NCBI RefSeq assembly: GCF_036669915.1
Contig: NC_089319.1
Span: 19,403,885-19,467,884 of the forward strand
DNA: 64,000 nt
Direction of reading: 5' to 3'
From: Pocillopora verrucosa
Taxonomy: Eukaryota > Cnidaria > Anthozoa > Scleractinia > Pocilloporidae
The position numbers and the translations under genes are program-made. This document shows, piece by piece, positions 12,701-49,900 of the stretch (position 1 is the first letter of the stretch; each line of letters begins with the position of its first letter). The notes below the pieces were generated by a model. It saw only the letters and a program-made list of their open reading frames with translations. It did not search any database and had not been told where the DNA came from.

Positions 12701-15700
12701 TCAAGAGGAGGATGATGAAGATGATGAGTCTGATGGATATAAGGTATTTAGAAGCTCATCCACATTGTTTAAAACAATGTCAGCCTCCTTTTCTAGAAAT
12801 TTCTGGTTGCCAGCCCCACTAAGAACACCTATTGTTAGACCTAGCCCAGCAGAACGACCCATTGAGGTGTCGGCAATAGTGTCACCAACAATAACAGTTT
12901 GAGTTGGACAAACATTTAACTCTTCACAAATGCCCAAGGCAGTTTCAGGATTGGGTTTTGGTTTGATGTCTGTATCATCCCCACAAACAATTTTGTCAAT
13001 CATGCTCATGAGGCCTAACCTGTCAAGAGCTGACAGAGTGCCTTCTCGACTGTCAGTTGTACAGACTGCAGTCTTAACACCCTTTGCCCTCAGAGTTTCA
13101 AAAATTGCTGGGAGGTCACCCAGAGGCTCCAGGGTATCATGCCCACCACTGTCAAAATCTTTACAGCAGTTGCTAACCAGCTTCTGTGCTTTTGCTCTAT
13201 CTAAACCACTCTTGATTAACACTGTGACAAATGCTTGTCTGATTTCAGCAACAGTCGCATGGGCTAGCAAGCCTCCGTCAGAGTAGATGCGCTTCTTAGG
13301 ACAATAACCCACTTCTTCATACATTTTATCAGCCAGATCAAGACCAGTTGCCTCTTCCAGTTCCTGCACATGACTCTCCATCCAAGGAATCCACACATTA
13401 TTCAGATCTATCAGAGTACCATCTTTGTCAAATATCACAAGGGAAGGGTCCATTGAGTCTGGGAAAGATGATCCACTGCTTTGGCCATCACCAGCAAGGG
13501 ATGAGAAACCTGCTGAACAGCCACCACGTCGAGGGAGCTGAGGTCTAGCCCAGGGGGCATTTCCTACAGGAGCCAAGTGATATTAGCAACACAAAAGGGG
13601 GGAAGGGGGAGACAGTGACTAGCAAACCTAACATGTCAATCATATCTTGGTAAGTGTAGGCGATGTGATCATTTCTGAAAGATTCTTGAGAGATTAGGAT
13701 TTCTTTGCATGTAGCAAAGTAGCAAAGTAGCTAAATTGTTTTTACACCATGGAACCATAATTTGCTTACACAAACAACACTTCACAACTACTTTATTAAA
13801 AAAAAAACGAACAAACCAAAGTGAAGCCGGTTCTCAAGCTAACTTTTGCCAAACTTTAAATAACATTGTAACTTTTCTCAGTTTCTTTTTGTTCTTAAAT
13901 AATAAAAAACCTTCTGGTAGCTTTTTGCAAGAAAACAATTTCAAGGGAATCTGTTTTTGGTGGAGTGTTTGTCTAGTTTGAAGATTGTGACTTAAGACAT
14001 GCCCTCTTTCAAAGACAGGAAAGTTACACCAGAGGTAGAAAAAATTATTGAAAACTTTTGACAAGGGTTATAAAATTTCTAAAAAACAAGACATAGCTTA
14101 CTGTCATCTTGAGGAATCATGCCACTATCAATCAAGAATATGGCAGTTCCTACAATTAATGTAATCCTTTGGATACCTGTTATTCTAGGACCCTGGTTCC
14201 AGAGGTCTTTGTCAATAAATGCTTTTTTCACTGCCGATGTTCGAATGGTTTGCTCTGGGGCAGCTGGAGGGCCATAAAGCTTGTTGTTATCAAACCCATC
14301 AGCACTTCGCCTGTTGACAATTACATATCAGCACCACATAACATCAGGCCTTTGACAAGCAAAGCTTGTAGGCCTTTGCACACAACTACAGTAAACTAAA
14401 GCTTTAATATAACAACCTCGCTTGCTGTATTGAACACTATTTAGAAACACCACATGACTACTATCGCTTTCAAGATAATGTGACATTTAAATGCCAAATG
14501 TAAATTCTCATGCTAAAATCTTTGAAACTTTAGAACAAGCATCACTTTAAATTCTGAGAAGGAACATTGAAATGTCTCTCTTTTCTTTTCTTTTTTTGGA
14601 CTGTGAGGAGGTGGTTATATCAGAAGACTGATCATTATAACACTTACCTTATAATTCAATTTATACAAGAATTCATTTACAATTCATTTAGTGCTACCAA
14701 GGTTAGATTACAACAGTTCATACTTTAAAACCAAGTTACACAGCCAGAAACTTAAAACTCAAAACATTGTCACATAGTTGAGAAAGACCACCTGTTTTTG
14801 TTTTTTTACAACTTTTGAATGACTTTGTATCATGGCTAAACATTCCAATATTTTGGGAAAACAATATCAGAAATTGTTAGGTTTGGATTCAGCCTTGCAT
14901 CCAAACAAATGGCCCTTGTATTAAAATAATGATAATACACAAATAGAAAGCTAAAAAAACCAAAACAAAATTGAAAACAGCTTAACCTTTCAGAATCTAC
15001 CATTTCTGCTTTGAGAAACATATTTAATCTGTTCCAGTGAAAGTAGAGATCAAAGTTCTGAATTTCTTCTCAAATTCCACAAAAATTTAAAAAATTGATT
15101 GAAATTAAAAGTGACCACTAATGCTGTGTGTCGATCTACTACCAATTAACTTCTTTTTTTTAAGCCACTTCAACTTAAATCTTTTTTTAAGCCACTTCAA
15201 CTTAAACTTTTTCCAGTGTTGAGACTAGGCTGCACAAATTTGCAAACTATATGCTTGACAATCCACAAAATCTTGTGATAGCACTCATTTGGTTTCACAT
15301 TGTGGGCCAATTGTGTCCTATCAATTCTTCTGAAAAATTTAGTTTTCTTTCTAACTAAAGAGTTGTTTGATATTTGTCATATCAAGTTTCTTTTCATCAT
15401 GAAACCAAAAAAAAATTTTAAAAGGATTTTGTATGCCCAGAACAACTATACAACATTTGTGCCAGTCGTCTGGGCCTACAGAGAACTCTGATTTTCTCCA
15501 CTGAGGATCTTGACCAGGAAGGAATTGAAACATACCTTGGTTTACCTAGGATAAAGTTCCAAAGTGAAAATGTTTGTGAGAGAATGTCATTGATGGAACC
15601 AATCATTTAAACAGAGTTTAAAAGAAATTCAGTCAGTTGCAATGTGTCTTGTGCCCAATTGTTTACTTTGCCCTAGAGTCATTTCAGACATTGGCTAGTT

Positions 15701-19839: not shown

Positions 19840-21306
19840 TTAATCTCTAGGTCGAGTTCCCTTATTAGCATTGCACTTACTATGTATATTACAAACTGTG
19901 TTGATGTCACAGTTATCCTTAATATGCGAGTAAAAAGACACAAACTTTTCAAGACTGCAGTACATTTTTCCTTCACAGGCCGGCATTGCGACCACCGCTT
20001 CGTTTACTAGAAGCTGTATTTTTATATGAGATTCCTGAAATGTCCCATTCCTGTCAGTGCTAACGGATTGTTGACACTGTCCGATGCAATCATTCTTTTC
20101 TTTTGCATCTCTTTTCGCACCGTCACGATTACAATTATAAAGCACAAAGGCAACATTTGCCGACATGGGTACTACATCTGAAATGCGAAAAGTACGGTTG
20201 GCCTGTTCGTTAAAATTGTCCGCTCGGGGTGGTACTGAGTCATTGTAGAGTCCAAGCATAGTGAAGAGAGGTATCACAGTTCCCGTATGCGCAAATCGGA
20301 AAATACCGTGAGGTTTCCCATTCTTGAGGAATCTTTCAATGCTATCTGTAATCTCCGCATAGAGAGGGCAAGCCATATTGTAGTTAATTTTACGCCCGTA
20401 GCTTCGGTCCCAGTAAAGTTTCAAGTCGTTCAGATACTCCAAAACTTTAAATTCTTCGTCTTCGAACACTGAGCACCAGCTGCTATCAGCGCTGTCAGTC
20501 TGAACCCCAAATGCGCACATCAAAAACATTTCCACAGCATCCTCAGGACGAAGGGAATACTTTCCGCTTAGTCGCAACCTTTTTACGATTTTACGCGAAA
20601 CTTTTCGCATTTCTGGACCGTTCATAAATTTTCGGTATTCCGATTGAGATCTTTTCCTCGCTGTAATCTTCTGCCATCTTGGACAAGCTTCAAAAATTCG
20701 TAGAACAATGTCGTCGTTGTAAGAACCTGAAAACTGCACCGCTACTGGACGAAATTTCATGCTTCCTAAATGTCCTTTTCCCTCAAAAAGGCCTTGAGCG
20801 AAAGCTACCGCACTCTGACTTGATCGCAGTTTGTCGGTGGCGATAAAGCTGTAGTTAGTATTGGAATAGCCGTGTTTTAAGATCCCGCGGAATTTAGAGA
20901 GGAAACGCCTTGCCATGGAGTACATCTCTTCTGTTCCTAGTTCGGACATCTCTTTGCTAGCCGAATTTATGATATCGGGCGGGAAACTCCAGGGAAGTGA
21001 CAGGCCTTTGTAGTGAAAGGTGGAATTATTAGGGAAGAATCTATTTATCTTTTCAAGCAATTTTTTCGCTTTCTTGATTCGAGAGCCTCCCGGGTATCTG
21101 GAGCCATGGCGAATCACCATGTTGATATGTATTGGTTCGCATCTCGGAGGCCTCTCTATTGGCCTGCTGCTAAAATGATACGGCGTTTTGTCGCTGAAAA
21201 GATACTTTTTAGGAGGCGAGTTTAACGCCGAGCCATAATCTAAACGTAGCATGAGTAGAAGAGCAAGAATCACCCTCAACAAGACCTCGGCAGATGTAGT
21301 TGCCAT
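19840..21306 (-). CDS. MINPP1: Multiple inositol polyphosphate phosphatase 1-like, intronless
   Basis: A histidine-phosphatase superfamily enzyme of the MINPP type, which hydrolyses phosphates from InsP6 and InsP5 in the secretory pathway. The reading frame opens at 21369, but the start at 21306 is preferred: it gives 488 residues, close to the vertebrate length, and puts a signal peptide first (MATTSAEVLLRVILALLLML). The catalytic RHGSRYPGG lies at residues 66-74 with H67 as the nucleophile. The second motif, usually HAE in MINPPs, reads HTG here (FRFAHTGTVIPL, H340). Several NxS/T sequons are present (e.g. NNST, NYS, NRT, NGT). The C-terminus (TRPRD) lacks an SDEL-type ER-retention signal. 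There are no introns, unlike most neighbours. The enzyme may be secreted; altered or lost activity is possible. Confidence 0.87.
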   Translation of the reverse strand: MATTSAEVLLRVILALLLMLRLDYGSALNSPPKKYLFSDKTPYHFSSRPIERPPRCEPIHINMVIRHGSRYPGGSRIKKAKKLLEKINRFFPNNSTFHYKGLSLPWSFPPDIINSASKEMSELGTEEMYSMARRFLSKFRGILKHGYSNTNYSFIATDKLRSSQSAVAFAQGLFEGKGHLGSMKFRPVAVQFSGSYNDDIVLRIFEACPRWQKITARKRSQSEYRKFMNGPEMRKVSRKIVKRLRLSGKYSLRPEDAVEMFLMCAFGVQTDSADSSWCSVFEDEEFKVLEYLNDLKLYWDRSYGRKINYNMACPLYAEITDSIERFLKNGKPHGIFRFAHTGTVIPLFTMLGLYNDSVPPRADNFNEQANRTFRISDVVPMSANVAFVLYNCNRDGAKRDAKEKNDCIGQCQQSVSTDRNGTFQESHIKIQLLVNEAVVAMPACEGKMYCSLEKFVSFYSHIKDNCDINTVCNIHSKCNANKGTRPRD

Positions 21307-21742
21307 ATTAAGACAGAAGATTCTATGTGCGTGCTGCGCTGGTCGAGGATCAAGTTTATCTTTCATCATGTCACTATGAGAGGTTGCGTGACCAAATACT
21401 AAGCCGCCTAGCCGAGTTAAGCTTATTCACACCCCTCTAGGCGGGATAGGCAAGACTGGTACTTAGTTGCCTACGTGTAGCCGTATCCTCCCCCCATGGT
21501 GAAACGGAGGAGCTTCCGAGTAAGGATCAACCCTCGAAACGTCAGCTTAGAAACTCTTTACGGTGACCAATTTAAGATTTCAAATCAGTGAATAATACTA
21601 AATAACCCTGATGGTGTCTTTTCTCCGCACGTTTGCCCCTCCCCACTAGTAGAGGGCATTAGTTTTGTCATTTTCGTGACTTTCACGGGTATTGAAAGCC
21701 TGGAACCGAAACTTGTGGCTTCACAGCGTCTGAATACTGAAA
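21307..21742. promoter_or_regulatory. Bidirectional promoter between MINPP1 and FKBP4
   Basis: The two genes are divergent, with start codons 436 bp apart (373 bp if the upstream in-frame MINPP1 ATG is used). The interval is GC-richer than its surroundings. No TATA box or clear heat-shock element was recognised. Confidence 0.5.
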
Positions 21743-32053: not shown

Positions 32054-32999
32054 CTGCCCCGAAATTAACGATGAGATTTAAATATCCACGTTGAAAAAGT
32101 CTTGAAACTAATTTCTTTCTCAGCAGACGTACGACCCTCAGTTCAATGGAATCATTTTTTCCTGGGCTATTAAAACACTCACAATTTTTTGGTACGTGAC
32201 GATAGCTGTGGTTACCCTGCAATTCTGTTTGTACCGGAAAATCAAAAGAGCGGCCTATTTCAGGTAGGTTTGTTTTCTTTTCAACAACAATGATATAAAA
32301 CTTTCGACTTTAATGGGATAAAAACTTCGCTGAAAAAATATTTACTGGTACTGAAGGACTTTAAGCAAGTCTTGACTTAAACAGATCTTCCCAAGATTGG
32401 AATGGTAATTGAAATGTTGTAACCGCAAGGTTATAAAATGCTCCTAGCATAGATTATAGCAATGTTTCTTTCAGTAAAATGCCTGGCCTATCATATTTTC
32501 ATTTCGTCTCTTCGTTTTGAAAGAGTACCACTTTGTTTTAGTGTTTGTAAAAAACCGGTAATTTTTATGTCTACCGTTTCGTTTCTGGTAAAGAAAAATT
32601 CCCAACTTTATTAAGTTAGTTAAGCTAATAGGTAGCGATCGGCAGGGAAAATCCAAAGTTTGGTGGTTATCAATTCATACAATTTATCCTATAAATAACG
32701 AGTTTTGCTTTATGTGATTGTCCTTTTGCAAGAACTGATTTTAAATCTTCTCTCACCGCAGGTTATACTTGAAGTCAACACTTAAAAGAGTAAATTCTCA
32801 CACTAAGATTCTCAACCAAAAATTAAATGTTTAGTTTCCCTTTAAGATTTATGGACTAACAACACCGTTGAGTCGGTTCTTAGTACGAGGTGTCTCCAAT
32901 TTTTGGAGTGGACATTTAGATTGGGGATATCTCAATCTAAGTAACATGAAGCAAACAGCAGTGTCGCTCGCTATCCTTCTGTGATCGAGAACTACTTTG

Positions 33000-33191: not shown

Positions 33192-36100
33192 ATGAAGCCG
33201 CAGACAAAGCGAAGTTTATGCTTGGGAAGTTTCCTTGTGATAGTCACACTCGTGGTTCTGTACTCGTATTGTAATGGAAATTCTGTCTGCTACACGTTTC
33301 CCTTCTTAAGTGGACTGGACCGAGACAGACTAGGTACCAAGCCACAAGCGGAAGTTTTGGTGGCTTCTGTTATCGTGCAGGCAAAGCGACCGTTGGAAAT
33401 GAGAACACCTATGGAGAAACAGAAAGGTATATTGCCATTCATTCAACACCCACACCTTCAGTTATTAAAAATCTTAAATCTTAAATCGTTCGAAGGCCCT
33501 GTCATCAATTCAGGGCTTATCTAAATAGATGATCACTTTAGAGCGCTTTTCGATTGGGAGTCCTAAGCCAAAACCAAAGTCATCATGACGGCCAATCAGA
33601 AGCGGAAAATAACTTTAAGAGCCAATGAGAACTCGAAGCAAAAACAACCAAACTACCCAAAGCGCGGGAAAACGCGGGCGACCAAGACGTAAATGGTTTT
33701 AGTTGTGCATCTAATTGGTTCAGAGGGTAGCACAAGTTTTCTGGACCAATCACAGAGCAGAGGATAACAAAATCGATGTAACCTCGGATTATTTTCGACA
33801 CTCAATAGAAAACTGCATGTTCTAAAGAACGTACTTGCACTCACAAAGGTTCAATTCATAGCGCGGAATTGGCTTGCTCCGCCTCGCGACAGATTTAGCC
33901 AACAAAACGCTAGAAGCGAAAATATTTCAGAGCGGAACGAACCAAGAATGAGCGACATAACGGCAATCAAACTGAGCTGAACTAACCAAGATAGCCATGT
34001 GAAGTGATATAATAAAATTATAAGTACCTCATGAATAGCAACCAAAAATAAAAACTCGATATTTGAACTCGTAAATAGAACTAAATAATTCGTATCTCGA
34101 ATTCACCGAATGCGAATGCTTGAGGCCATCAGTTGATAATTTCATGTATTGAGCCACAATTCTACTCATCAGCTCCAAAGCGCGTAACTCAATGGAATTT
34201 CGGAATACAAAAAGAAGGGAAGGCAAAAAAGGGGAAAAGTTGCAATGAAGCAACGAGATCTCAGGTTCAAAACAGAGCAAATCGTCTGAAGCGCGGGAAA
34301 ACGCGTATGAGGAACCAAGTCGTAATACCAGTTTAAGTTTTGCATCAAATTGGATAAGGGGATGTTATGAAATTTTCTGGACCAATCACAGAGGGAAGGG
34401 AACGAAAGTCAAATTAATCTGAGATTACCTTAACGCTCTTTATTAAAATCACTATTGAGTGCGTTAAACTTCATTAAATTCTTAATTAAAGTATTTTTGA
34501 ATTTCCACAGGGTCATATCATGAGACTTCAGGAACACTTGGTGATCTTCACGTGAAAAGTAAAGAAGAAGGACATGAAGGAAAGACTATTAATGTTACTA
34601 ATGAAAAAGTCGAAAAACTCCATTTTTACCAGAACAGAACTACTGATCACTCGTATTTAATGACTGGAGGGGAGAAACAATATAACAATACACAAGTAGA
34701 AAAAACTCATGAATTCAAAAAACACCTTTTGCCTCCTTCTGATATTGTTGGAAAGATCGCAGAAGAAATTTTACGAAAAGCTAACGTATCCGAAGAAGAA
34801 GCCAACAGAGAACTCATACGCGTCGAGAAAGTCGACGAATATGTCGACAGGGAGAGAGAACAAAGAAGGAGAATAAAACAACACGAGCATTCGCTTCTGG
34901 AAAAGTTGAAGGAGTCGCGAAGTACTGGAGGAAAAAGCAAAGAGAAGAAACTGGTACGAGTTGAAAGAGTAGACTTGACTGACGAGGAAGAAGAGGATGA
35001 AATTCCAGAGCAGAAAGAACCTCTCAAACAGGAAAAACCTCTCAAACAAGAAAAACAAGTTAAACAAGAAAAGCCTGTCAAACCAGTTTATGAAGCGCGG
35101 TTTCAGGAAAGAGCAGCGTCAAGTAATACAGCAATTAAAAGGTTTTCAGTGGAGAAAAAGAGTAACGAAACTTTGATGAGTGAGAATAACAAATCATCGT
35201 ACGAAAGAAGATTTGGCAAAACATCTAAGGTGAATAACACAATAAACAATACGTCAGCAGTAAAAAAAAATGGAACCTTTCTCGATTCCAAAAGCAACAA
35301 AACGGGGGAAGCTCTTACAATCACGCCTCCACCTTTCTTTGCAAAGTTTTTGAAAATTACTGAAAAGGAACGAGAAATGATGAATTTTCTTCATAATTAC
35401 ACCGAAAGTAACGGAACGCTTTTTGGACCGGTGTTAAATATTACTCAAGAGGGGAATGGTACCAAGAATATAGAGCCAAATATGGCGCAAAGAGCGAACA
35501 TGGCTTTTGAGCAGGTGGGCGCTGATACAGCTCACGTGCGCGAAAAAAGAGATCGTAGGGAAGGCAATTTGCATGATAGTCTTCAACCTTTGATAGACAG
35601 TTTGTTGGGATTCAATAATGGCACTAAAGATTTAACAGAACCATTTAACTTAAGCCACATTCTTGGAAAACTAACCAAGGGTATGGGAAGTCAAAATCTT
35701 CTTGCGACAGATACCAAACAGACTTCACCGCCAGATAGCACGGCTCTCCTAGTTAAATTTCTCCAACAAGGTGGTCGTAACAGATCAGGCGCGGCTAAAA
35801 ACGACACAACTGCTCACACTGATGATGCCTACATTAAAGTCATTGGAACGAAGCTAGAGAGCCACAAAAGTGAACAACAGTCTCCGTTAAATCTTAAGAA
35901 AATTCTTTTAGCACTGGCAAATCATATTGACTTAGCTAGGCAAGATAATGACTCCAGGGCGACGAATCCAAAAATTCAGGAGGAGAAGTCCAATCTGAAA
36001 ATCTTGTCCCTTCTATTAAACCAAAGTACGTGGGAAGATCTTCGCGATTTCAACTTGAGCAGTGCTTTGAAAGAAATCACTGGAAGTTCCTTGAAAGTAA

Positions 36101-38844
36101 AGCGACATGAAAAACTCGAGGACCAGGGGTCTAGTCAGACCCAGGCTGATGTAAAGATAATACGGCCAGAAGCGGATAAACTAGGGGCTAGCACACCGGA
36201 GTTTGTTTTAAACACAGTTAGAAACCCCAGAAACTCTTCAAAGAGCGAGGAAGGTCTCTCGTCTTTGAAATATTTCTTAAATGCGACAATCATTGAAAAG
36301 CATGCGTCAGTTTCGAGCGGAACTGGCTCAGAAGAGCCCGGGGATGAAGGTTCTAGAAGGTTTGTTTTAGCAGCTTTGACATAACGCGACCACTTCCCAT
36401 TCTCCTTCGCAACGATCCACATACAACATTATCATTTGTACATCATTAACTCCATCTACATCTCAGATCACGAATTCACATCGAACCAACATGACAGAGA
36501 TCAAACAGCTCCACTAGTACTAGTCACAACAAAACAGCTTTTTACAATTGGGGTGATTTCGAACCTCTCTTGCTGAAATTCGATACAACTTTTCAAACTG
36601 GCAGTCAGTCAGTAATTGTCAGTTGTCTTACCACAACATGGTACTTCAGTACCGAAAAAAAATGTGTTTTTGACAAGTGGCTCGACTTTCTTTTCCCTGA
36701 GACGTGTTCTTACCTCGACTTAGGATAACATGAACGAAAACTTGAACTTTTTGAACAGAAGTCAGTTATAAAACAGAATATTTATATATCACAGACAATT
36801 TTTCAAGCGCACAATTCTTTATTTTGATTATGATAGTGTCGACTTTGAGAACCAAAACAGTAAAACCTTGAGGGTAGAGGAGAAATCTGAGATGAACAAA
36901 CAATCAAAACATGGCTCTAATGGAATATTGAAGTTTGACGCGATCAGATGTGATGCCCTGGATCCAAAAGTGTTGTTGTATAATCGTATTTTCAAGACGG
37001 GGAGTTCAACCACAGAATTTATAATTACGAACTCGAGTTCAAGAATGAATTTCCACTATAAAATAGGTGAGCAGAAGTTCTTTAAAGGAATACTTGGGTT
37101 TCACTTTTGTGCCTGAAACTAAAGTAAAGGTATGTAAATTAGATCAAATGACTTTTGTGGAATGAGGCTTCAATTTTCGACAATTTTCCGGCAAAGTAAT
37201 CTTGGTAAGACTTGTTTCTTCCAAAACCCTAAAGCACAGTTTTTGTTTATAATAATAATTTGGTGAGTGGTCGAAGAACTAATGCCAGTGGTTTTAACAG
37301 GATCCAGAATAAGGAGCTAACATTGCCTGATGCGATTGACTAACTTAAAAAAGTTAGGAAACAAAATCACTGACGTCACTCTTCAATAACGTTTAACGAA
37401 AAACGCTGCCTAACGTGAATACCAAATAAAACATAGCTCGCAAAACATAACGCATAACACATAACATTTTCATTCTTTCAATCATGTTTTTCGTTCTCGT
37501 ATATTCTTTGATCATCATTAATCGCCCACTTTCTTAAAAATGAGTGATTAACCTTAATTACTAATTGCTCTCTTGTAAGTATAATATCAAGTGGCTTTAT
37601 CAACTCTATGATACTATGCTTGTAGAATAACAGTGAGCTTCTTGACTGTGTAATGGGATATTTTGTTAATTGCATCAATTGTTTCCATGCTTAAAGAATC
37701 ATTAGTTACTGAACATCGGCCAAGGAACCGAAAAGGAGGAATCAATTAATTTAAGTCCTCCATGTTAGCTATCTAGTCTTTGAGGTTCATACAGTCATTT
37801 AGAGAGAGGGGAGGGGGGTGGGGTCGGGAGAGGGCGGTCTTTCTTGTTAGAACTGATGAAATATCATGAAGATAAGAGATTGAGATTTTTTGCGAAGACT
37901 TGCATTCTTTTTGTTTATTTTCTTAATTAGGCTAGCGAAGTCTTAAAATCTCGGGGAACATCAGGCGATCGGGAATTTTCTGTTTTAAATCATTTTTTAG
38001 GGTAATTAAGGGAAATTTTCATTAATTCAGATGATGAGGAATCACAATAGCTGGTCTCTTTTCTGGCTGTTTTTGACATGTCACGCCTTAGAGCATCGTT
38101 GCGTGACATTCCCTACAACGACAACGGTAATCTCTCTTTTGCTTATGCCACATTTCTCTGTTAAAAGGAACGACGGAAGACTGGTACGATAAAGGCACGT
38201 CCCGCCCATATCCGGGACTTATCATAAGAAAAGCCAACAAACTCAAGAAATACCCGCGCATGGCATTTGTGGCGCATTTTTACTTTCGGAGAAAATTGAA
38301 CTTACCACAGGCTCATACGTACATCAATCAAGTACGCGATCCTGTAAGACGGCTAGTGTCTCACTATCATTACATGAGGAGCAACTTACGGCCTGCCTAT
38401 AGAATTAAAGAATTTCGCGCATCTGGAAAACAAGACGAATCTTTAGAGAAATGTTTCAGATTGCAACATAAAGGATGTCAAAATAACGTTATGACGAGAT
38501 TTTTCTGCGGGAAACATTCTTATTGCCACAATGGAAATGGAAGGGCGCTGCGCAAGGCTATGAGTAACATCAAACGATATTATGCCACAGTAGGTTTACT
38601 GGAAAATTACGATGTCTACCTTCAAATACTGAATAAGCGGTTGCCTAAGTTTTTCCCTGAGATCCCCTCAGAGGATATCAGTAAATTTAAGTACAATTCC
38701 GAATATAAGTTTGACGACATTCCCAGAGATCTTATTAGAGATATTACCAGAGCAAACTGGGCTGATGTGAAGTTGTACTCGTTTTTGAAGAAACGCTTTT
38801 GGCAGCAAGCTAAAACCTGTGGCATTATGACGAAATTAAACTAG
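33192..38844 (+). CDS. Glycosaminoglycan 2-O-sulfotransferase (UST/HS2ST/pipe family) with giant stem
   Basis: A type II Golgi enzyme that moves sulfate from PAPS to the 2-O position of uronic acid in chondroitin/dermatan or heparan sulfate. Exons: 33192-33426, 34511-36359, 36861-37066, 38168-38844; GT-AG and in phase, 988 residues. The start at 33192 is chosen because a strong acceptor ends at 33178; an upstream in-frame ATG (33129) lies before it. TM anchor about 9-27. The catalytic region (about 720-988) has the 5'-phosphosulfate loop YNRIFKTGSSTT (735-746), candidate catalytic H800 in VAHFYF, the 3'-phosphate site RDPVRRLVS (820-828) and FFCGKHSYC. Exon 2 (1849 nt) encodes about 615 residues of charged, sequon-rich stem with KQEKPLKQEKP-like repeats; animal homologues total about 350-410 residues. 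Skipping exon 2 would break the frame (phase 1 into phase 2). Confidence 0.82.
33575..33800 (-). repeat. CCAAT-rich dispersed repeat copy 3
   Basis: Reverse orientation (AGCGCGGGAAAACGCGGGCG; GGACCAATCACAGAGC) in the first coding-side intron of the sulfotransferase gene. Confidence 0.65.
34285..34450 (-). repeat. CCAAT-rich dispersed repeat copy 4
   Basis: Reverse orientation with GAAGCGCGGGAAAACGCG and CTGGACCAATCACAGAGG. It ends about 60 bp before sulfotransferase exon 2. Confidence 0.6.
37804..37836 (+). repeat. G-rich tract with quadruplex potential
   Basis: Five or more G-blocks (GAGGGGAGGGGGGTGGGG and GGGAGAGGG) in the last intron of the sulfotransferase gene, on the coding strand. 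Confidence 0.6.
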
Positions 38845-43900: not shown

Positions 43901-46900
43901 GCAGTTGGTTGTGACGCCGAACTAGCATCTAGGATGCACGGGTCCGAATCCTGTCCAAGCTTAAATTTTTTCAGCCTTCTTTTGTGCAATTTCTTTAACC
44001 CTTTAACTCCCGTAAGTGACCAAGGCAGAATTTCTCCTTGTAATATTAATACAATGTCAACCAGATAAGTAATGAGAATAAAGAAAAATATCAATTTGGG
44101 GATAAATAGTTGATCCAATATTAAATTCTCTGAACCAACATTAAAAGAATTGTATGGTTGACAGTAAGGAGAATTACGAATTTGATCTGGGAGTTAAAGG
44201 GTTATTTACATCTTACATAAGAGGATCACTTCTTTCCTCATATTTCAGCCGCAGATTAACAGATGATTCGTTTCACTTAATTGTGAACAAAGGAGAAATA
44301 ATCTAAGCAGGATGTGAGGACGAGAGGATGGGAGAGAAAGAGGAATAACAGTGTACAAACCTGGCACCTGAAGAAATGAGGGGAGCAGGGACAGGGAAGG
44401 CATAGGCCTGAGGGGAGCGGGGACAGGGAAGGATACAGAAGAAGGGAGGATAACATGGAAAGAAGGAAGGCAAAAAGGAAGGTCTGAAAGAACAAAGAAA
44501 GGGTGAAAAGAAGGAAAACAGGGAAAGAAGTAGTAACAGGAAACGAGGGAGCGTGGAACACTGAGTTGGGGGAATGGACTGAAATTCTCTTACTTCGTCT
44601 GTTCTTGCATCTTGTTAAGCTGTTCCAGTTTTGTGCGGTGTTCGGTTTCCACTCGTTTCACCATCTCGTTGATAAGTTTCATATACTGGCCAAACTAGAG
44701 GCAAAATAAAACAGAGAAGTCAGACAAGATTATCAGTGATGTGGTTCACAGATAACCAGAGTTTTCCACATATTTTTAAGAAACCAACCGTAAAACTAGT
44801 AAAGTATTGGGGGGGGGGGAAGGGGGAGGGGGAGGGGGAACGAAAAGAACGAGCTCCTATTACGATTCATGCCCCCTACTGTCACTTACTGTTTACTTAA
44901 TCCGTTAACTCCCAGCAGTGATTAACATGTAACTTCTCCCTACGACATCCATACACTATCCAGCCAACAGGTAATGAGAATACTCAAACGTATCAGGTAG
45001 GAGTTGCTACTTTGATCTAACACCAAATTCTCGTGACTTATTTACAAAGAAATGTGTAGCAGACAGTGGGGAGAATTAACAATCAGATCTTGGGAGTTAA
45101 AGAGTTAACATCATAATGACGCTTCTTAGGTGAAAAAAGTAGCCGAAGAAAGCACAGGCTATTAGTACTTCAGCCGGAGATCACTGATTACAGCTGCGAA
45201 GGAAACTGCAAGCTGAGAGAAAATGAAACGGCCAAGACGGAGTCCAATTCGATCAAGTATTCCGAACATTTCAAACTTGTCAGATATCTTCAAGGACCTG
45301 TTTCTCGAAAATTCTTGTGAATTTTCAGGCCCAAAGCTAAATTTAGGAAATTTAGTGCGGGTCTTTACGAAAGATCCAGTCCCTTCTTTTCACTGCGTGA
45401 TACCATGATTTTCATTGTTTTTATTTCAAAACTATTAGAATTTGGATCTTGCATGCAAACACAGCACACAAAAGAAAAAAAGAAAAACCTTTTCCGAAGC
45501 AACAACCACCGCGACTTTCGAGAAACGGGCACAATATAATGCTTTGTTTTCAGCACTGCACTCTATTGCAGAAGAGAGGATGTGATTTACCTGGTCATAT
45601 GACAAACAACTGATGGAAATCAAACCTGTATCTGTGATTCGATCGAGTGACCCGTGATTATCATCTAAAATAACATGTGAGAGTCACGTTCATGTATTTA
45701 TAAATACTGACGGGAAGTTTACTTTGGTAATCTTTCTTTATAGCTGTAACGGAAGGCGACTCAATGTTATTCTTATGGAACGGTTAAAACTGGTGATACG
45801 TACGTGATAGAATTTAACATAGTTGCGACCCTACGGTAAGTCAGCCGTATATAATTAAAGAAAAATGCGACATATCAATTCTAATTGTGAAGTATGCAAA
45901 ATCCCTTTTAATTAATTCTTTTAAAAAATCTTAAGTCGCCTTACAGAGTTAAAATGCGCTCGTACTCGCTGACCTGTCAGAGGTATTAAAGAAGGAAGTT
46001 CAGTTAAAGAATAAGTCACCATGTTTCGTAATCTGAACCCGTATCAGACATAATGACAGGAACTGAAAGTTGGCAAGCACGATACCTCGAAAGTACCATT
46101 GATATGAAACAGCGGGCGTTTGAAGTACCGGAAATAGGATTCAACCTTTCATAACCACCAGTTTATGTTAATAGATAACAATTCTTCGCGCAGGAAAACA
46201 TGGCAAGTGAATTAGAAAATGTTCAAAGAGCAGACGAGCCACTTAAAAAAGCGTCCTTCAAGGAGCGAAATAAATCCATGGTGAATAACAGCCTCATAAG
46301 CGATGTCACGTTCATCGTAAACGATAGCAATGGAGGCAAGGAAATCACCGTTTACGCTCACAAGTACGTTCTCTCTGTGGGCAGTCCTGTGTTTTTCACT
46401 ATGTTCTACGGCGCTTTAGCGACAGAAGGGGCTCAGGAAATACACCTTCCTGACTGCGATGCCGACAGCTTAAAGGAATTCCTTAGTTTTCTCTACTGTG
46501 ACGAGGTTCGTATCTGCGAAGACACCGTGATACAGTTGTTGTACCTGGCTAAGAAGTACATGGTGCCTTTACTACACGAAATGGCCAAAAAGAGGCTTCA
46601 CAGCATGATTAATGCGACAAGTGTATTCGAAATCCTTCCCTCAGTCATTCACCTTGACGAAGGCGACCTCGTTGAACAGTGCTGGAAGGTCATCGATATT
46701 GACACGGAGCAAGCGATCAATCAGGACTCCTTCTATGAGATCGAAAGAGATTTGCTGGAAAAAGTGCTCGAAAGAGACGAGCTAACGATCCGAGAAGCTA
46801 ACCTATTTGGGAGAGTGTTAGACTGGGCTAAGGTGCGTCAAAATCTACCAGAAAGCGACGGTAAAGAGAGCAACATCCGTGATATTCTAGGAGAGAAAAT

Positions 46901-49900
46901 GATTCGTCTGTTACGCTTCTCAACAATGTCCTTTACCGAATTCACCAGCCTTGTATCGAACTCAGGAGTGCTTAAGGAAAAAGAACTTACTGCCATCACA
47001 CAATTCTACGGAGGGTTCTGCCAAGAGACCCCCAAGGAATTTTGCGAGAGTTTCCCAAGGGGTAAAATTTTCAGATGCAACAGATTTTCGAAAGCGTCTG
47101 ATCCGGAAGTATTGCCACGGAATAGAAAATGGAGTTATAAGAGAGGATACGAGGACAGCATTAGATTCTCAGTCGAGGCTCCAATCGTTATATGCGGCAT
47201 TCGTCTGTACGGCTTTGAACGAGCTTCGTATTACGTGGAATTGTCGATTTACCACGCGTCACGCAATATTCATGACCGTGACACACGTAATCTACCAAGT
47301 TTCTCTACTGTTGGTATTTTTCAAAGCGACGAAGAAAGGACCAGTGAGTACTACGGATTTGATGTACCCGTTGATCCACCGTTTTACTTGAAACACAATA
47401 CGGATCTGATAGCGCAAGTTATCATGCAAGGCCCAAAGTCCGATTTTGGTGAAGGAGGCAAGTTGTCTCTCGATTGTGAGGGGGTTAGATTCCATTTTAG
47501 CAACGAACGCAGTCGTAACGGCACAACAGCGAAAGTTGGTCAGTTCGCGGAGATAATATTCAAAACTGATCTGTAAAATAAAGAAAGACGTTCTTTGTGA
47601 TGTCAGGAGAGTGGGAGGAAGTCTATGGTCCGAAAAATTGGACCACAGACCTTCGGATTACACCGATGCTCATCATTCATTCACGTGACGGTTTTGTTGT
47701 TTTCTTATTTTCGAGGCAAACAAACGCTTGTCACAAGTGAACCTGGTAATGCCCTGACTCATCACAGAGTCTCTTAATCTCAGTGGCAGAGCATGAAAGT
47801 GCAAATCCGAAGGTCTGTCATTTTCTTCCCCATGGGGATTCTGATTTATCTTCGTTCCACGCACGTGACAAGATGGGTAACAATTCACGAGCGAGCACAA
47901 AACACATAATTTTTTCCTATTCCGGTGCCTCGTTCTTATCTCCCAATAGCTTATAAGTTTTTCGGTTTCCTCTGAAGGTTCGCAAGTTGACTGTGTACCT
48001 TTAAAATATAACTGTTTAGTGCTCTCCATGAGGTCATTAGACTATGAGTTTGCGAGGTTGAGTTGTGATAGATAGCAAGCAGCATATTTATTACGATGTA
48101 TTTATAATTCACTTAACTAGTATTTTTAACATTAACAAAGTTAAGAAAAACTTATGGGAAATAATTCAATTTGTCCAAACAAACGCCGACAATTCAATCG
48201 AGCTTAGAACTTAATGTAATAGTCTTTAAAAAAAAATGGGTAACAAATACGTTACAATCATTGCCATCCGGGTTTTAACTGACCCCAAAAGAGGAAAGTG
48301 TCCATAAACAACGTACTCGTTTGAATTTCGGATAATTTTAAAGATACGTTAAGCAACTTTGTGGCCGTGGCTCGCTTGAAAGAGGGAGACACAAGTGGCA
48401 AAGACAATTCGCTTTGCTTGACATAGAGAATTGTTTAGAAAATAGCCTTTCCTACGACAGAATTTTGTCGCTAGAACAAGTCGCACAAACTCAAACTGGT
48501 TTGAATTTAAAATCACAGAAATAAACTGTGTCGCACCGACTTGCTTTGGATGTGTACACACAAAACGGTCTGATACGCAAGGAGGCTTAAGACAGAGAAT
48601 AGTATCTTGGCTTGTTCCGGCCTTAATCTTTTACACCCTAACATCATTATGCATATTCTCCATACTGTTCTCTATACATTTCCTAAGGTGCTGACAAGGA
48701 GAATTTGTTTAACAATCAAGAGCTTCTTTAGTTGGTGATTATTTCCTTTATTCTTACGACCTTAAATGAATGATTCAGCAGTATTATTGTAAGGAGAAAA
48801 TAGAAGCTCGTCACTCTTTGGGTTTAAAGGGTAAAAAGTTCCGAAAATACTATTAGGGCGCAAAAAAATCCAATAATCCAAGCACGGGAGGTTCTTTTCT
48901 AAGAGACGTCATTGATGCCAGAAATAGTAAAAAGGAAGTGACAGAGTATAGTCATAAGATGGTGAGGATTATATAAGTCCTGTATTCTACACAATCTTCC
49001 TGACTGCTCTGACGACAGTTTCGAGAAAGTTTTAAGTTTCATTCTGTCAATTGCTACTTAAGTATTCAGATCAGCATTCGTCTGTTACTAAGTTACAATA
49101 CAAGAATGAAGATCTCAGTGCGAAGTTCAGGAAGTCAGAAGGAAAATATACGGGTAGTTTTGGGTCAAACACAACACTAAAATCACGGCGATGCAAGCTC
49201 TTCACCCGGCTTAAGAAAATGGCATGGTTTCCCAGATTTTCCCTCTATAAATATAAGACTGAAAAATCCATACAAGACAGAATCAGTGAACATGACCAAG
49301 ACATCAAACTCGCCCCAATGCAGATCACCGTCGGAGCATGCCCATGATGTGCTGTTTCACGCCAAAGGGAGGGGCACAGAACCGATTTAAGTAAGATCTC
49401 ACCCTTCCGTCATGAAACGGGGACGTAAAAAAAAAAAAAAAGAACTCGAGACGTGCGAATACCCCCGACCTAGAGACAGCGTATCGCTCATTAAACAATT
49501 AAAAGGTAGAAAAGAACAGCGAGGATTGAAATGCGCCAATCACGGCTGGTTACCGCGTTGCGTCACGCAACCGTCATAAGATGACCCAGTCTCCTGAAAA
49601 AAACGCCTAATAAGCAATCGAAATTTCATCTCTTCCATAAGTTAAAGAAGTAACTACATCGTAGGACAAACACTTATAACACGTCATTATTAAGGAGTAT
49701 TGCACTGTTTGTTTTACCTGTGAAAGATTGAGTCCCGGCTCCACTGCTAAAGGAAAGAGAAACGGAATAGCTTTGGTCGCCAGGTAGTCCTTGTCCATAC
49801 CGAGCTTCTTATGAAGCATGGTTTGCTTGAAAATTCCTGGAAACAGAAACACAAAATGCAGTTCAAATGGTAATTCAAAAGATCGAAACATAACCCTAGT

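Follow-up and report, generated by a model that had tools for sequence, protein, structure and literature searches.

Why should a coral sulfotransferase, whose short relatives have 335–493 residues (27 examined), carry a 617-residue region encoded by a single exon? The question is raised by a gene on the forward strand of Pocillopora verrucosa contig NC_089319.1 (NCBI RefSeq assembly GCF_036669915.1), within a stretch of 64,000 nucleotides (positions 19,403,885 to 19,467,884), here called the window, whose numbering is used throughout. Four exons, A to D (235, 1849, 206 and 677 nucleotides), join into one stop-free frame of 988 codons plus a stop between 33192 and 38844. An earlier note made from the sequence alone had drawn attention to a giant in-frame exon between a membrane anchor and the loop that binds 3′-phosphoadenosine 5′-phosphosulfate (PAPS), and the 1849 nucleotides of exon B and the open frame bear this out. 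We suggest, with confidence that stands about midway, that the product would be a glycosylated precursor cut by a furin-type protease, releasing a C-terminal half that consists of part of the stem and the sulfotransferase.

The coding part of exon A (33192–33426, +; residues 1–78) provides the start codon, a short tail and a hydrophobic segment predicted to act as a type II anchor. Exon B (34511–36359, +) begins in phase 1, ends in phase 2 and encodes a stem with 24 N-x-S/T sequons and no cysteine, its length of 617 residues counting both split codons. Its coding frame is free of stops, which number 40 and 57 in the remaining forward frames. Exon C (36861–37066, +) carries the PAPS-binding loop YNRIFKTGSST at residues 735–745, and exon D (38168–38844, +) the remainder of the sulfotransferase domain, with His800, Arg820, Ser828, five cysteines and the stop codon. 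The phases had been taken earlier to mean that exon B could not be skipped without a frameshift; joining A, C and D does break the frame and brings in stops shortly past the junction. A likely further exon lies upstream at about 32124–32263 (+), open in frame with exon A, containing a hydrophobic stretch and ending in phase 2 with a donor after 32263; P0002, a protein of Oculina patagonica, has a similar ..KKIKRAVYFRCRSIM.. ahead of its MKPQ. The phase of this upstream exon is also compatible with direct joining to exon C, and no in-frame ATG was found in the part read.

The A/B and C/D acceptors look ordinary by our own reading, and the A/B junction is backed by the database proteins P0003, P0013 and P0002. 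For the B/C junction the backing is confined to the annotation of Oculina P0002 and the exon phase, and the splice presumably takes place in P. verrucosa as well. In the B/C intron (intron start 36360–36384, +) the donor GTTTGT is unlike the consensus GTRAGT at +3/+4, and the pyrimidine tract ahead of 36861 is poor; exon C may instead begin at the acceptor 36795, which by our reading is also in frame and would add 22 residues. Since P0002, an annotation, is the only one of the whole-protein search matches to span B/C, the model could be an artefact in which a stem gene and a sulfotransferase gene are separate neighbors. We consider this highly improbable: the same order is found within one annotated Oculina protein, P0126 (stem) and P0050 (enzyme) each lie on a contig of 132786 nucleotides that is likely one and the same, the short anemone relatives hold anchor and enzyme within one protein, and the exon phases fit.

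The catalytic part matches Pfam PF03567 (29.8 bits, cut-off 22), and heparan sulfate 2-O-sulfotransferase (HS2ST; PDB 4NDZ, 3F5F) is its best match in both sequence and fold, the sulfotransferase fold being recovered in a structure search with the P0002 model. The PAPS-binding Lys83, Thr84 and Ser86, together with Arg164 and Ser172 (HS2ST numbering), are identical in P. verrucosa and in 11 of 11 database proteins compared, and the position of Thr87 is variable, with Ser in P. verrucosa. The catalytic base His142 corresponds to His800 and is His in all 11 others. By sequence and model alike the domain resembles HS2ST, with its key residues kept. The 2-O-sulfotransferase of the earlier note stands as a sulfotransferase, with a 2-O specificity that is putative: HS2ST His140 and Arg189 are replaced by Val and Ile (the Arg189 column less surely aligned), and for this reason we do not file the enzyme as HS2ST, from which it also differs in its 988 residues and long stem. 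In our tree the branch leading to the HS2ST row is very long (7.82). Across the genome, 24 exon-level matches to Pfam Sulfotransfer_2 were obtained, all above cut-off and eight of them on contig 14; the gene at 33192–38844 is not among these 24.

The stem was then followed through protein databases. A whole-protein search, in which proteins of about 540–1730 residues were allowed and the 7994 candidates sharing most words were scored, gave 38 relatives; a profile built from 12 stems, with 7993 candidates sharing most words scored, gave 57 stem matches, all 38 earlier ones included. The one full-length relative is the 1033-residue Oculina P0002, with anchor, stem and enzyme at 57% identity and 100% coverage, the sole protein to cover both stem and enzyme among the scored candidates of the whole-protein search. 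Its identity to P. verrucosa is 77% over exon A (77 aligned residues), 54% over the stem, 69% over exon C and 81% over exon D. Sixteen stem representatives have 64 invariant columns out of 533, the median identity of the stems is 0.51, and on these alignments the stem is evolving faster than the enzyme yet is clearly constrained. Both P0003 and P0013 join anchor to stem and look like spliced RNA, P0013 because P0027, near-identical in the stem, has ...SLSPGKHVETS where P0013 has the anchor. Most remaining stem matches begin near or within the stem, as expected of single-exon frames.

Composition sets this region apart. The 24 sequons compare with a shuffle mean of 6.7, and none of 2000 shuffles reaches 24; other representatives hold 14–25, except for the truncated P0122 (9), and in 14 columns a sequon is present in at least 60% of the 16 representatives; these sequons would be N-glycosylated. 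The earlier note was right to count more than 20 sequons and to find no cysteine-rich domain in the stem. The stem core is cysteine-free in 56 of 58 rows, the exceptions being P0027, whose frame departs near the end, and the short P0122. In all 27 short relatives, by contrast, one or more cysteines lie ahead of the PAPS loop (membrane segments counted). The lysine/glutamate repeat of KQEKP type that had also been described is present at about 35014–35085 (+); it is not conserved, occurring in 2 of 39 aligned rows (P. verrucosa and P0001).

The stem is predicted to be disordered. AlphaFold2 gave a mean predicted local distance difference test score (pLDDT) of 40.4 with 32 rows, with pLDDT < 50 at 501–615, and for P0002 values under 50 across most of the stem, which argues against a folded stem. 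No strong structural match over the stem was listed in the structure search, run with the P0002 model only, and the existence of one is not thereby disproved. A known domain was also sought: a Pfam scan of the P. verrucosa stem returned sub-threshold matches only (E 0.55 and 0.81), and of the relatives scanned, four in number, only P0111 exceeds the cut-off of a family in the stem. In P0111 the conserved block LPPSDIVGK..RVEKVD occurs as a tandem duplicate at residues 155–199, and the second of the two scores above the threshold of Pfam DUF5415 (28.3 bits against 25), treated as a lead only. Nor does exon B look like a mobile or repeated element: at E <= 10 the stem has a single match, itself, among six candidates scored in its own genome (353 Mb, 52 contigs).

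What, then, would such a stem do? The evidence that carries most weight is a short basic motif. The earlier note had noticed a basic patch near REKR, and this REKR (35539–35550, +; residues 422–425), a furin-type RX[KR]R motif, proves to be the conserved one, kept in 57 of 58 stems and lying in a predicted disordered stretch as in furin-processed proproteins. Over stem positions 296–354, if columns filled in fewer than 14 of the 16 representatives are set aside, T297, N315, R343, K345 and R346 alone are conserved in at least 15, and position 344, the P3 position of the basic site, is free to vary between R343 and K345–R346. Fixed R, K and R with a free P3 is the pattern that a furin-type enzyme would impose. 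A second dibasic site, KVKR (36094–36105, +; residues 607–610), is [KR]R in 14 of 16 representatives. Ahead of the PAPS loop, RX[KR]R is found in one of 27 short relatives (Nematostella P0056, RTRR, residues 46–49). Of the three ideas put forward earlier, namely a spacer, a proteoglycan-like acceptor and release by proteolysis, the last is the best supported: the site is conserved with P3 free, and cleavage itself is predicted.

The end of the stem adds a second signal. SSGTGSEE (36313–36336, +; residues 680–687) places Ser-Gly beside acidic residues in a manner resembling glycosaminoglycan attachment sites. In the last 45 stem residues, Ser-Gly occurs 36 times in 15 representatives (P0122 left out), against a shuffle expectation of 2.9 and a maximum of 8 over 1000 shuffles; all 15 have at least one, with acidic residues nearby. 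None was found ahead of the PAPS loop in Exaiptasia P0052, Nematostella P0056 or Hydra P0078. Available parts of two papers describe chondroitin sulfate sites as lying in disordered stretches with acids mostly on the N-terminal side (PMC10424144), and xylosylated serines as typically preceding glycine near acidic residues (PMC8418075). Ser-Gly with nearby acids in a stretch predicted to be disordered (pLDDT < 50 at 501–615) is consistent with a proteoglycan, and a glycosaminoglycan chain may be carried on this end. The acceptor idea thereby gains motif support, attachment itself being putative.

Put together, these features outline a possible route. The giant exon sets the conserved, predicted-disordered and sequon-rich stem between a likely membrane anchor and the catalytic domain, the precursor presumably taking a type II orientation in the Golgi. 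PAPS is present in the Golgi and wanting outside the cell. The enzyme would work while anchored there, until a furin-type protease, probably acting late in the Golgi at RX[KR]R, ended its residence. This cut would send out a soluble, glycan-rich C-terminal piece, the rest of the stem with the enzyme, which without PAPS outside the cell would have no enzymatic activity there.

Several observations weigh against this route. Some RX[KR]R is held by 508 of 2000 shuffles of the P. verrucosa stem, so the motif in a single stem means little and the case rests on its fixed place; the stem rows moreover share ancestry, and 57 of 58 and similar counts are not independent. P0126, the lowest-scoring match to the stem profile, has NKR in place of RX[KR]R and a single acidic residue near its Ser-Gly end, and the RTRR of the short-form Nematostella P0056 shows that a basic site can also occur outside the long stem. 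P. verrucosa and five more of the 15 representatives have just one Ser-Gly, most of the acids are, by our reading, on the C-terminal side of the serine, opposite to PMC10424144, and motifs alone are ambiguous for glycosaminoglycan attachment according to the part of PMC8418075 available. Finally, the best-conserved stretch, at stem positions 72–157 (20-residue blocks 0.71–0.91), is better conserved than the basic site, and cleavage does not explain it.

This last stretch, partly helical by prediction (H77–89, H94–137), speaks for a different function. The stem may be a long passive spacer in the Golgi lumen, or an arm for retention and oligomerization, uncut in either case, with its conserved blocks serving as binding sites for partner enzymes or trafficking factors; stems are general among Golgi enzymes. 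A spacer has no need of a fixed R, K and R around a free P3 in a variable disordered stretch, nor of a Ser-Gly/acidic end, and we regard this explanation as having a real though minor chance of being correct.

A further alternative concerns the transcript. If the B/C intron is retained, translation meets an in-frame stop at 36382–36384, and exons A and B could mainly yield a membrane protein that is stem only and resembles a small proteoglycan core, with the joined enzyme minor. P0003, spliced at A/B, ends in ..RKRFV, the exon end read into the B/C intron; it is one contig of 2288 nucleotides from another species, a length that leaves no room for the enzyme. In P0013 (2391-nucleotide contig), where A and B are joined too, the enzyme is again missing, although the tail of this protein (..RRNDRGLVR) may represent a next exon cut short. 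The off-consensus donor and poor acceptor tract described above favor retention, and 48 of 58 stem rows end in RFV or RSV, as do 11 of the 14 representatives with a readable end (P0002, trimmed beforehand, and the truncated P0122 set aside; manual count). P. verrucosa and P0121 run on five and three codons beyond this usual stop, and P0013 differs. A stop kept just within the intron, despite a median stem identity of 0.51, hints at selection, among rows that share ancestry and with one clear RNA-like contig. The stem-only product is judged at the protein level, and unspliced pre-mRNA would look alike. The P. verrucosa intron has no AATAAA, with TATAAA at 36767 the only one of the poly(A) variants scanned, its stop is reached five codons further on than in the majority of relatives, and exons C and D would be anchorless without B. 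On balance a predominantly stem-only product seems unlikely. The independent stem transcript that the earlier note had named as contrary to its gene model is touched in part by P0003.

Where did the stem come from? A search covering proteins of about 160–515 residues, which by itself says nothing of long forms elsewhere, gave short relatives of 337 residues in Exaiptasia, 336 in Nematostella, 357 in Hydra, 412 in Hydractinia and 454 in Clytia. Within the same genome, L011 (50%) and L012 (44%) are close paralogs of the enzyme exon, and a third match (29%) is weak. The predicted L011 product has about 399 residues, its anchor, short stem and PAPS loop all lying on one exon. The paralogs fall in a different clade (100/100). 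P. verrucosa groups with P0002 and seven further rows (94/88), of which group only two rows are known to carry the stem, and its sister is a seven-row group with both anemones, Exaiptasia and Nematostella (86/82); neither fork is starred. The simplest reading of this tree is that the stem was gained on the coral side, loss in the anemones being possible, and it is probably limited to stony corals, as judged by Oculina patagonica among the 57 matches.

The catalytic regions of Exaiptasia P0052 (337 residues), Nematostella P0056 (336) and Hydra P0078 (357) are 47–50% identical to that of P. verrucosa, with 76–105 residues ahead of the PAPS loop and RX[KR]R in Nematostella alone. Oculina patagonica ACROYT_G036560 (P0002) resembles P. 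verrucosa in having anchor, stem and enzyme, differs in lacking the KQEKP repeat, and is a hypothetical protein with no function assigned by its source. Furin-processed proteoglycan cores such as glypicans combine a furin site and glycosaminoglycan attachment serines in one secretory protein; they have no enzyme domain, and the analogy is functional only, with no relation claimed. Titles and abstracts on coral or cnidarian sulfotransferases, skeletal matrix and proteome, heparan sulfate in calcification and furin-cut stems did not describe this protein, supplementary tables lying outside the search, and PMC12960093, in its available part, deals with an arylsulfatase rather than this sulfotransferase.

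Three other loci were noted in the window: a histidine phosphatase (branch 2) at 19843–21423 (−), a single frame of 527 residues (E 1.1e-40); a BTB-BACK-PHR protein at 46182–47573 (+), one open frame of 464 residues; and a HAD-family hydrolase frame at 12704–13582 (−) of 293 residues (E 9.3e-24).

Sulfated polysaccharides are thought to be important in coral skeleton and mucus, and literature on the enzymes concerned is sparse in the titles and abstracts found. What is new here is a coral sulfotransferase bearing a stem with a conserved RX[KR]R, predicted disorder and a Ser-Gly/acidic end. A broader proposal, which we offer as speculative and hold to be quite unlikely as a whole, is that one gene would supply the acceptor of a glycosaminoglycan as well as the enzyme sulfating such chains, the choice made at the B/C intron yielding either a furin-cut sulfotransferase with its own attachment site or a stem-only core, so that core and sulfation would be coupled in the secreted matrix; its origin would lie in the coral lineage, once sea anemones had diverged. 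With its conserved and likely cleavable stem, this is a concrete gene for approaching the release of an enzyme, the attachment of glycosaminoglycan and a possible stem-only product in corals.

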